DNA of 36,408 nt from Candidatus Methanovirga australis (GTDB taxonomy: Archaea > Methanobacteriota > Methanobacteria > Methanobacteriales > Methanobacteriaceae): contig JAISTD010000224.1 in assembly GCA_031272765.1 (NCBI GenBank), positions 1 to 36,408 on the forward strand, written 5' to 3'. Positions 893-35,027 of the stretch are shown piece by piece. Below the pieces are notes generated by a model that worked only from the letters and a program-made list of their open reading frames with translations, was not told where the DNA came from and made no database searches. Each line of letters starts with the position of its first letter. Within the stretch, counting starts at the first letter, position 1. Position numbers and translations under genes: made by a program.

Positions 893-1000
893 TTGGCTTG
901 ATGAACTTTCACTGAACTAAGTGAGAAACTTAGGAACTGAAGGTTTTGGTTTATTTGAATAGAGTTGAACAGAGTGAGAAATTTAGGAATGAAATTCTTG
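893..1000 (+). repeat. Two copies of the TTAG-linked double-hairpin unit
   Basis: Two units sit side by side upstream of the reductase gene. Each has a GAAC-A/G-AGTGAGAAA-like segment, then TTAG, then a small hairpin with a GAA loop. The hairpins are GGAACT-gaa-GGTTTT (933-947, partly G-U paired) and GGAAT-gaa-ATTCT (986-998). They match the layout of the array at 4741-5031. Confidence 0.55.
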
Positions 1001-3934: not shown

Positions 3935-4084
3935 GAATGTACTTTTGTTTTTTTTAATTAATAAATCTTATTATAATATGTTACTAATTAAATTAAAAAA
4001 ACTGGATTATTATAATAATAAACTTATTATTAGTGTTTTGCAAAATTAATTATTTTGAACTTAACTAAAAAATGGAATTTTTTT

Positions 4085-4365
4085 TAATTTTTTTTAACTT
4101 GATTAAAATTCTTAAATTTCATTTTAAATTATTAAAATTACATTATTTTTTTATAAATAATCTTATAAAAATTAATTTAATAAAATAAACTTATTATTTA
4201 TAAAATCTCTGATTTTATAAATATTAAAAATCTTCGATTTTGTAATATTAATGTTTAATTTATATTTTATAGATTAATTATTAAACTTTTTTATATTATT
4301 AAATTCCAAAAGTTTATTTAAAAAATAATTGAATATCCAGAAATAAATATACAAAACACTATAAA
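4085..4365 (-). repeat. Degenerate inverted copy of the MITE-like repeat found at 34740-34970
   Basis: The reverse complement of this segment aligns with the element at 34740-34970. Shared blocks include TTTCTGGATATTCAATTATT, AAATAAACTTTTGGAATTTA, AAAATATAAATTAAACATTA and TTTATAAAAAAATAAT, in matching order. Compared with the other copy, this one has about 55 extra bases near 4190-4250 that form two perfect or near-perfect hairpins. No terminal inverted repeats were recognised at its ends. Confidence 0.65.
4197..4248. repeat. Two strong adjacent hairpins inserted in the repeat copy
   Basis: TTTATAAAATC-tct-GATTTTATAAA is a perfect 11-bp stem (4197-4221). It is followed by AATATTAAAAATC-ttc-GATTTTGTAATATT, a 13-bp stem with one bulged G (4219-4248). 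Both use three-base loops like the double-hairpin units downstream. Confidence 0.6.
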
Positions 4366-4627
4366 AAAGAATAAAAAAGAAGTTTTTAATAAAGCTTCAC
4401 AAAAAAATTACTTAAAAAAGAGGAATCATCAAATTGAACATTCACGATAAGATGCAGAATTACTATCAAATATCTAAAATATTTTAAAGTTTAAATTTAA
4501 TCTTTTTAAACAAGGTGTCTGATTTTCATGAAAATTTCATCAGATTTTTGAAAGTATTTCCACATAAAGGATCATTAAATTCAAAATAAAAAAAAATTTT
4601 GAATTAAAGAAAATAAAAAATTTTCTA
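4366..4627. other. Gene-free AT-rich stretch
   Basis: No reading frame, RNA gene or recognisable protein remnant is visible. The palindrome ATTTTCATGAAAAT near 4524-4540 lies inside a longer imperfect hairpin (CTGATTTTCATG...CATCAG). Nothing else stands out. Confidence 0.5.
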
Positions 4628-4694
4628 AGTTAAAACAAGTTTTAACTAAAGAAAAACTTCGCTTTTCTAAATTACAAAATCAGAGATTTTATAA
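4628..4694. repeat. Hairpin cluster, apparently the double-hairpin unit in reverse orientation
   Basis: Three stem-loops lie head to tail: AGTTAAAAC/GTTTTAACT (4628-4647), AGAAAA/TTTTCT around acttcgc (4650-4668) and AAAATC-aga-GATTTT (4676-4690). Short CTAA strings separate them; CTAA is the reverse complement of the TTAG linker seen downstream. Confidence 0.5.
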
Positions 4695-4740
4695 TTAAAG
4701 AAAACCATGAAAATTGAAAAACCTCCACAACTTCAGTTTC

Positions 4741-5031
4741 CGTTTGTTTTGAAGGTCGTGGGAAACTTAGGAGACGAAGTCTCCGTTGTTGAAGACAACT
4801 TAGAAACTGAAGGTTCCTTTTGTTTCGAATGAAATGAGAAACTTAGGAGAATCTTTGATTCTCTGTTTATTCTCAAGCGAAGCATGAGAATTTAGATAAT
4901 CTTTGATTTCGAACAGAGCGAGAAATTTAGGATAGAGTTTCCGTTAGTTTTGAATGAAATGAAAAACTTAGGAAAATCCCTGATTTTTCGTTGTTCCGAA
5001 CAAAGTGAGGAACTTAGTAAACGAAGTTTAC
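4741..5031 (+). repeat. Array of about seven TTAG-linked double-hairpin units
   Basis: Units of roughly 40 nt repeat irregularly. Each has a first hairpin with a 10-11-nt loop resembling GAACAAAGTGA, the linker TTAG, and a second hairpin with a 3-nt loop (GAA, TTT or GAG). First-stem pairs include GTTTC/GAAAC, GTTTT/AAAAC, GTTCC/GGAAC and ATTCTCA/TGAGAAT. Second-stem pairs include GGAGAC/GTCTCC (4770-4784), GAGAATC/GATTCTC (4847-4863) and GTAAAC/GTTTAC (5017-5031). Stems change in sequence yet keep pairing. Some units are imperfect (GGATA-gag-TTTCC; GAAAATC/GATTTTTC). No protein frame explains it. Confidence 0.75.
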
Positions 5032-5184
5032 ATTATTTTCGTTTATATAAAAACATGATTTTCATGAAAACCTCCACACTTTTTGACATATCTCATACTA
5101 TATAACAACATTTATATACTATCACAAACTATGTTAATATGTGAGTTTCATAAATTACCAAAAATTTTTAATTTTTGTAATTAT

Positions 5185-5267
5185 GAAAATCCAAAGGATT
5201 TTCAGTATTTATAACTTTTATCAAAATATGCTATTTTTTCTGAAAGAAAATTAGAAGACAAAGTCTT
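5185..5267. repeat. Two isolated hairpins of the same style
   Basis: GAAAATCC-aaa-GGATTTTC (5185-5203) is a perfect 8-bp stem with a 3-nt loop. AAGAC-aaa-GTCTT (5255-5267) follows a TTAG at 5251-5254. They look like outlying or partial members of the double-hairpin family. Confidence 0.5.
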
Positions 5268-5349
5268 TGTTTTTGATAGGTTAATAGAAACTCTCATTAG
5301 TAAATATTTGTCAATGTATGCCCCCAATTCAAATCATTAAAAGAGAAAT

Positions 5350-5574: not shown

Positions 5575-5609
5575 ATCAGACACATCGTTTTTAAAGTTTA
5601 AATTTACAA

Positions 5610-12158: not shown

Positions 12159-12225
12159 CATGATACCCAAAAAAATAATCTCAATAGCCATATTCAGCCA
12201 AAACTTTTAGAAACAGAAAACAGCA

Positions 12226-12312
12226 GAAACCTCGTTTCATAAATTTCTCAATTCCTTTGAAATCAAAGATTTTCCTAAATTGTTCATTTTGTTCACAACA
12301 AAAGTTTGATCA
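12226..12312 (-). repeat. Two double-hairpin units in reverse orientation
   Basis: Read on the minus strand, the first hairpin TTGT-gaacaaaatga-ACAA is followed by TTAG and GAAAATC-ttt-GATTTC (12259-12274). A second unit ends in GAAAC-gag-GTTTC (12226-12238). The layout equals that of the 4.7-5.0 kb array, but with different stem sequences. Confidence 0.55.
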
Positions 12313-31729: not shown

Positions 31730-32665
31730 TCAGTATTTTAGGCTTTTAAGTTTTGAAATTGGGAGATTGGTGACTTCACTGACTAAGTCTAATTCCATTC
31801 CTTTTCTTAAAAGATTGATGGCTATTTCCAACTTACCATCATTCATTCCTTTTTGCTCTCCTTTTATTATTCCTTCTTTCATCCCTTCTATTTTACCTTC
31901 TTTTATTCCTTCTATTTTTCCTTTTTTTATTCCTTTTAATTCTCCTTGTTTTCTGCTGTGGTTTATTTCACTTTCAAATTCCATTTTTGCTAATTGTCTC
32001 ATTTGATAGTCGTGAAAAGCTTTTTCATCTGAGAGTAGTTCATTGAATTTTTCATCTGCTGCTTTTATGTCTTTATCCATCTTAATCACCTCATCTATAA
32101 GTTTTTTTGGGCTTTTTTTATCAAAGAATATCATCCATCTATGTAACGGGTTATTCAAGTCTTTTTGTTTTAGTTTTCTGAATGCTGGAATGTTTATATT
32201 GTATATTGTCAGATAGTCTGAGTATAGACATTGATCTTTATTTCCAAGTATATTAAACTTTTGGTTAGTGAGATTATTCTGACAAAATTTAAAATCCAAG
32301 ATATTGATTAATGTATGTGGTTTTAAATCATTTAATTCACCTTTTTTCACTGAATTGGAATATTCCCTCGCTAAATACAGTAAACTTCTTTTTTTGAAGT
32401 GGTGCTGATTTTGTCTTTGCACTTCTATTATGAAGTGTCTTCCATCTGATGAAACTGATCTTAAATCAAGTATGCAATTTTTTTTGCCTTTAATTTCGGC
32501 TGAAATTAGTTTATTTTCAATAATCTCTATAAATTCAATTGAGTCATTGTTTTCTTTAAGCACTGCATTGATGAACGATTTTAGTTGTCTTTCCATGCCC
32601 TCACTTGCCATATACTGAGAAAACAAAAAGTCATCCAACGGATCAAAATACCTTGTAGTAATAAT
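31730..32665 (-). CDS. Rpn-family PD-(D/E)XK nuclease / recombination-promoting protein
   Basis: The protein starts within TRYFDPLDDFLFSQYM, the family's N-terminus, with a PD-(D/E)XK core at CILDLRSVSSDGRHFIIEVQ (D and E-x-Q). The C-terminal part is a charged repeat of KGKIEG/KEGKIEG blocks ending in a short helix pair. Rpn proteins promote RecA-independent DNA exchange or act in phage defence. The start is odd: the best ribosome site, GGAGGT at 32672-32677, is followed 6 nt later by ATT, with no ATG, GTG or TTG before the conserved sequence. The track's TTG at 32701 lies upstream of that site. Coordinates here assume the ATT start. Confidence 0.75.
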   Translation of the reverse strand: MITTRYFDPLDDFLFSQYMASEGMERQLKSFINAVLKENNDSIEFIEIIENKLISAEIKGKKNCILDLRSVSSDGRHFIIEVQRQNQHHFKKRSLLYLAREYSNSVKKGELNDLKPHTLINILDFKFCQNNLTNQKFNILGNKDQCLYSDYLTIYNINIPAFRKLKQKDLNNPLHRWMIFFDKKSPKKLIDEVIKMDKDIKAADEKFNELLSDEKAFHDYQMRQLAKMEFESEINHSRKQGELKGIKKGKIEGIKEGKIEGMKEGIIKGEQKGMNDGKLEIAINLLRKGMELDLVSEVTNLPISKLKSLKY

Positions 32666-33033
32666 AATATTACCTCCATAAAAAAATTTCTTAATCAACA
32701 AGTATCATTTAGTAATATTTTATTTTGTATTGATTCATATATTAATAATACTTTTAACTAAATTAATATTTATAAGTGATGTTAATTTTTAGGAGTATGT
32801 ATTGATATTTTCAAGTTAATAATTAAATATAAATTAGAATATTATTTTACTGAAATTTTACAATTATGATCAATTTTTTTAAGAATTAAGACTGTTTTTT
32901 TTATTTGGTGGGCTTTTTCTATTATATTGAAATATTCGATATGTTTATATGGTATGAAAATATAATATTCTATGTTCTAATTAAATGGAATTATAAGTAT
33001 AAAAAAAATAATGATGATGGAGTGTATAAATGT

Positions 33034-34690: not shown

Positions 34691-35027
34691 GAGGCTGTCC
34701 AACAATTATTTTTGTTCAACCTATATATAGTGAATTGCATACTTATTTCTGGATATTCAATTATTTTTAAATAAACTTTTGGAATTTAATGATATATAAT
34801 AGTATAAGAAAATTTAATGATTAATCTTAAAATATAAATTAAACATTAAAAATGACTTTATTTTATCAATTAATTTTAATAAAGATTGTTTATAAAAAAA
34901 TAATATAATTTTAATAATATTAAAATGAAATTTAACAATTTTAATCAATTTAAAATAATTTAAATAATTTTCAATAAAAATCAATAGATTAAACTTTTGT
35001 TGTGAGTCAGAATTGTTAGACAGAGCC
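34691..35027 (+). mobile_element. MITE-like element 1, 337 bp
   Basis: It starts GAGGCTGTCCAACAATTATT and ends with TTGTTAGACAGAGCC, an imperfect inverted repeat with a 2-base gap. The inside is AT-rich and noncoding. A diverged inverted copy of its interior lies at 4085-4365. The ends resemble the left end of the IS1182-like element at 19687, so that transposase family could have moved it. Confidence 0.65.

Follow-up and report, generated by a model that had tools for sequence, protein, structure and literature searches.

A tandem array of double-hairpin units nested in MITEs on a Candidatus Methanovirga chromosome

Described hairpin elements and the archaeal host

Short, intergenic double hairpins, the double-hairpin elements of Allomyces mtDNA, are summarized in PMC2800124 (citing Paquin et al. 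2000), and related repetitive hairpin-forming elements occur in sponge mtDNA (PMC2800124). By resemblance, these mitochondrial elements appear to be the closest kin of the units described here, in which two adjacent hairpins likewise form one repeated unit and mobility is likewise visible as presence and absence (paralogous pairs in four hosts and orthologous whole-unit differences). As far as that account of the Allomyces and sponge elements goes, the likeness extends to confinement to close relatives, variability between these, and clustering by tandem insertion (PMC2800124). Unlike the mitochondrial elements, the units lie on an archaeal chromosome and are nested in MITEs; their stems show compensated variation and their loops and linker are conserved, the opposite of the sponge elements, in which the stems are conserved and the loops vary (PMC2800124).

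Yeast mitochondrial GC clusters, in the outline given by the same source, are mobile hairpin-forming clusters thought to transpose as DNA (PMC2800124); measured against that outline, sequence and composition differ, and the alternating hairpin grammar is seen only in the archaeal units. REPINs and REPs with RAYT are also small non-autonomous hairpin DNA with compensatory changes and a hairpin-adjacent tetranucleotide (PMC3116915, PMC3733652), but the chains here consist of two different hairpins, the tetranucleotide is TTAG and not GTAG or CGTC, and a RAYT partner was not found. Inverted ends, target duplications and insertion of one element into another are shared with prokaryotic MITEs and pneumococcal BOX/RUP/SPRITE clusters (PMC10969869), from which the present case differs in its cargo, which is modular and made of chained 36-51 bp double hairpins that several MITE families have in common. 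In the way they work, the units are comparable to nested MITE clusters and to the double-hairpin elements of mitochondria; by the tests made, they are not a REP/RAYT system. In the literature searched, a limited selection, double-hairpin units are described only for mitochondrial DNA, and no description of archaeal ones was found.

Methanovirga comprises uncultured methanogens of lower termites, living in gut flagellates, and its genomes have a low density of coding sequence and are rich in pseudogenes (PMC13135261, PMC11287868). The stretch analysed here, termed the window, is 36,408 nt of Candidatus Methanovirga australis and codes for methyl-coenzyme M reductase operon protein C. By BLAST, 54 places were found in the same genome; the unit model gave at least 134 matches there, in keeping with the many genomic copies named as support in the first inspection, and at least 176 in Candidatus Methanovirga procula, counts that are probably too low. 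Elsewhere, there were 13, 2 and 2 matches in three congeners and 7-8 in two other genera, with almost none beyond, and an exact unit-derived pattern occurs in 52 stretches of Candidatus M. procula and one unrelated contig. The same grammar, in other letters, recurs in congeners where close matches are few or absent (e.g., ATTCAC aaa GTGAAT TTAG GAAAATC ttt GATTTTC TGTTT). The phage and plasmid records searched for units gave no match.

Two further features of the window may be recorded. A PD-(D/E)XK nuclease family transposase gene (PF12784) lies at 31730-32701 and contains internal tandem repeats of 24 bp at 31845-31952. A second family of double-hairpin repeats that has the linker TAATTA (TGAAAATC..GATTTTCA, CAAAAATTGC..GCAATTTTTG) is present at 5150-5215 as well as at about 12960-13120 of L161 and at L069/L162, and shows one whole-unit difference of 56 nt between M. 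australis and M. procula.

Unit plan and covariation

A first-pass annotation made from the sequence alone had described an array of about seven units of one plan at 4741-5031. Seven tandem units are found there, each composed of hairpin 1, TTA(G), hairpin 2 and GTT, and all the stem pairs quoted are present (Table 1); the plan holds, but some units are degenerate, such as hairpin 1 at 4746 and hairpin 2 at 4906. A covariance model for which most training copies lie elsewhere (a few of the 99 units come from the window) recovers six of the seven (E 1e-14 to 2e-4), the unit at 4869 being recognized by eye only; the module of this unit occurs with an intact hairpin 2 at L027, L029, L030 and L042. 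Leftward, the array extends as a second chain in opposite orientation. The extra copies proposed at 893-1000 and 12226-12312 are real, with model matches at 906-998 (+) and 12225-12299 (-), and one more was found at 5237-5268. The separation from CRISPR also stands, as adjoining modules are all repeats of one plan and no constant repeat with unique equal spacers is present.

Table 1. Positions of units and MITE ends within the window
Feature	Position	Strand	Description	Evidence
Unit 1, double hairpin	4746..4784	+	hairpin 1 decayed, GGAGAC gaa GTCTCC intact	R1 45.8 bits, E 4.7e-10
Unit 2	4788..4817	+	GTTGT tgaag ACAAC, TTAG, hairpin 2 decayed	R1 E 2.3e-4
Unit 3	4822..4864	+	GTTTC/GAAAC TTAG GAGAATC ttt GATTCTC	R1 E 2.6e-9
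Unit 4	4869..4905	+	ATTCTC..GAGAAT, TTAG, decayed hairpin 2 fused to unit 5	read by eye
Unit 5	4906..4942	+	ATTTC gaacagagcga GAAAT; hairpin 2 decayed	R1 E 6.9e-8
Unit 6	4947..4989	+	GTTTT/AAAAC TTAG GAAAATC..GATTTTTC	R1 E 9.7e-10
Unit 7	4993..5031	+	GTTCC/GGAAC TTA GTAAAC gaa GTTTAC	R1 63.8 bits, E 1.1e-14
Second chain, same grammar	~4578..4700	-	AGTT..AACT t AGA..TCT tt	one weak R1 match at 4652-4680
Two further units	906..998	+		R1 E 3.7e-5 and 3.4e-4
Two further units	12225..12299	-		R1 E 4.3e-8 and 9.1e-5
MITE-1 right end	5040..5097	+	TTTATATAAAAACATG..CATGAAAACCTCCACACTTTTTGACATATCTC	end common to MITE-1 family
MITE-1 left end	4700..4735	-	inverted, without outer ~15 bp	MITE-1 family comparison
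Single unit in MITE-3 (host 3)	5237..5268	+	ATCAAAATATGCTATT^TTTGATAGGTTAATAG, also ATCAAAATATGCTATT^TTTGATAGG	R1 E 1.2e-4
Single 51-nt unit in MITE-4 (host 4)	4195..4245	+	repeat about 4064-4380	17 empty matches

The unit formula is RTT-hairpin 1-AAY-TTAG-hairpin 2-C-GTT, with a size of 36-51 bp (typically about 42), and hairpin-1 and hairpin-2 types combine freely. In the common form of hairpin 1, 5 bp are followed by tandem GA/GA, then by 2 bp and a triloop; what had been taken for a GAACAAAGTGA-like loop is thus by plan not single-stranded, being made up of the tandem GA/GA, two covarying pairs (AC/GT, AT/AT, GC/GC) and the triloop. Pairing was assessed on 99 distinct 39-nt units drawn from M. 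australis and M. procula, in whose TTAG linker T22, T23 and A24 are invariant and G25 is kept in at least 90%. Base-pair cells are paired in 94.2% of cases against 83.5% after shuffling, a difference that includes some built-in bias because up to three mismatches per stem were tolerated in collecting units; cells altered on both sides, which this does not affect, number 167 against 43.7 in the shuffled set. All 11 variable pairs covary, and the signal is lost when the partner position is slid. Stem-only variation with pairing kept, as first claimed, is borne out. Among mismatched copies of hairpin 2, 15 of 39 have arms from two different perfect hairpins (15% expected), an excess which suggests loop-internal recombination and makes the high level of pairing more notable. 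Orthologous units of the two species are few and mostly near identical.

The array is also predicted to fold beyond chance expectation. With 4741-5031 folded as RNA, none of 200 dinucleotide shuffles equals it (z -3.7); folded as DNA, the + strand is equalled by none of 200 (z -4.7) and the - strand by one of 200 (z -4.8).

MITE shells and the presence or absence of units

Many arrays terminate in GAAAACCTCCACA, which is the end of MITE-1; recognisable ends of this family number 96 in the genome and 0 in the control. MITE-1 qualifies as a MITE by its inverted ends, 8-bp target duplications, lack of an ORF and multiple copies, and no transposase was found between its ends in the stretches of DNA sampled. 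Empty copies measure 98-99 bp, most with 8/8 target duplications, and filled copies measure 140-146, 184, 211, 230, 276, 279 and 369 bp, rising in steps of about 42-48. Perfect 8-bp target duplications occur in both classes, and the MITE-1 at L031, with a duplication of 8/8, carries the window array's own unit type. As chain-bearing MITEs have 8-bp target duplications, the MITE moves together with its cargo.

The window locus itself would be either a single MITE-1 whose left half is inverted or a fusion of two partial copies. At this place M. procula lacks the array and carries a different gene, with homology ending at 5584, and for this reason the window locus offers no clean empty site of its own. 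The ORF that replaces the array (L135, procula C26, 200-1700) lies directly beside the DegT gene and resembles, by eye only, a DUF1703/PD-(D/E)XK-type protein.

For single units, the flanks were joined and the joined sequence was searched for; matches within arrays fall mostly between tandem units and are little informative, and the informative cases come from four unrelated hosts, in each of which filled copies have clean empty counterparts. The first is the MITE-1 centre (junction TTTTCTTTA^TATATAAAA), where L199 and L246 are 98.9% identical and ungapped across the joined junction. The second is the hairpin-1 loop of another unit (AATTCAAAATTTTTTATT^TTGAATT; about 34 empty and 15 filled copies), and the unit is present in the loops of three different hairpin-1 types. 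MITE-3 is the third, with seven filled copies of 71-72 nt (+36 nt) against about 18 empty ones of 34-36 nt. In MITE-4, the fourth, the difference is +51 nt and both states lie in the window, the empty copy being at 34701-34985 on the reverse strand. As a separate observation, the motif GGTTGAACAAAAATAATTGTTGGACAGCCTC recurs at species-specific DNA junctions (L098 140-190, L161 about 13100, and near 34.70 kb of the window), and may be the terminus of a further mobile element.

In the 150 kb alignment of M. australis with M. procula, indels inside arrays are 42, 42, 42, 48 and 90 nt long, that is, one or two whole units, and longer presence/absence differences carry whole arrays. No newly inserted single unit in unique DNA was found in this alignment of about 150 kb.

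Origin and meaning of the chains

The array probably consists of linked, non-autonomous insertion units of double-hairpin type, which sit inside MITEs and inside one another and owe their spread to transposition of the MITEs and recombination of modules. Each unit would insert independently, in the form of a folded single strand or a cruciform, chiefly at the centres of existing palindromes, by means of an enzyme supplied in trans. Chains would lengthen by insertion beside or inside older units, and also where conserved loops and TTAG linkers recombine, after which MITE transposition would disperse them. Pairing may be maintained in that only folding copies move, or in that one arm templates repair of the other; the units would have no evident host function and would multiply in an eroding, symbiosis-prone archaeal genome. 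Several points weigh against this account: empty copies can also come from hairpin deletion, as L229 appears to, the palindrome-centre targets could be coincidence, and no clear target duplication was found for the unit itself. Filled copies of one host mostly carry one common unit, which implies few independent insertions. With regard to candidate enzymes, IS110, for which palindrome targeting is known, is absent from the genus, and TnpB/IS605 is present but its end hairpins are unrelated to the units. At L258, an IS605-type TnpB element (ends CTACGGACT..AGTCCGTAG) adjoins a double-hairpin array, upstream of the TnpB gene.

Chains could instead have been born inside MITEs through replication slippage, unequal recombination and palindrome template switching, with quasipalindrome repair keeping the arms complementary and the empty copies being deletions, an origin that we consider unlikely. 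The array indels are indeed whole units between similar sequences, the mismatched hairpins look as if recombined, and the equality of G-T and A-C pairs is what a mutational process predicts; nevertheless, the same plan occurs in at least four unrelated hosts, the unit sits in three different types of hairpin-1 loop, and empty MITE copies are numerous with their target duplications still perfect. The first-pass claim that this is not ordinary duplication is accordingly half right: whole-unit gain and loss within arrays resembles repeat recombination, but single units are also present as inserts in unrelated hosts.

It is decidedly improbable that the arrays are transcribed and that the hairpins act in RNA, whether at 3' ends, in processing or as small RNA. 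Strong covariation and a stable RNA fold would suit such a role, but both DNA strands fold equally well, an Rfam scan of the window gave no family at gathering score, and arrays in tandem intergenic gaps are oriented at random to the adjacent genes (18 sense, 22 antisense), and gap types match the background, the genes there being simple ORF calls. Non-standard pairs (G·T 51, A·C 46) likewise have no wobble bias on the unit strand, and this, together with random gene orientation, argues against a transcribed structure. The multi-hairpin RNA once suggested thus finds no backing, the evidence favours DNA over RNA, and a structural repeat acting as single-stranded or cruciform DNA is supported.

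Movement of REP/REPIN-type elements by a RAYT-like Y1 transposase is very improbable. A tetranucleotide tag, TTAG, precedes a hairpin, target duplication is not clear, and two congeners have intact Y1_Tnp genes; against this, Y1_Tnp is only a remnant in the two unit-richest genomes, M. australis and M. procula (8 stops; 3 stops), and was not found in G004, though G004 shows a similar-looking chain. No array flanks the intact Y1 genes (including G003 C66), where a cognate gene flanked by repeats would be expected, and local IS605 ends (CTACGGACTccatAGTCCGTAG) are unrelated to the units. The linker of the 99 units is TTAG in place of the expected GTAG or CGTC tag, and the chains are direct, head-to-tail successions of two unlike hairpins in place of an inverted REP doublet. 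The units are therefore REP-like by resemblance only. Finally, use of the structures by the host under selection, for example as protein-binding or nucleoid sites, is hardly credible, for despite intergenic placement and the conserved GA/GA motif and TTAG, presence at the same place differs between sister species, many units are decayed, and placement is random relative to gene arrangement.

Returning to insertion units, these may, as a tentative proposal, form an archaeal class of 36-51 bp non-coding double hairpins that are moved by an enzyme into palindrome tips without target duplication and whose arms co-evolve, which would join prokaryotic MITE biology to the mitochondrial double-hairpin elements. 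How very short palindromic repeats multiply and retain stem complementarity is an old question, mainly known from organelles. The present case also shows that covariation by itself is no proof of a functional RNA. In the two sister archaea, copies run into the hundreds, sites occur both empty and filled, and arrays differ by whole units; this makes it testable whether a hairpin of 40 bp can act as an insertion unit, and whether the arms stay complementary through selection or through repair templated by the hairpin.
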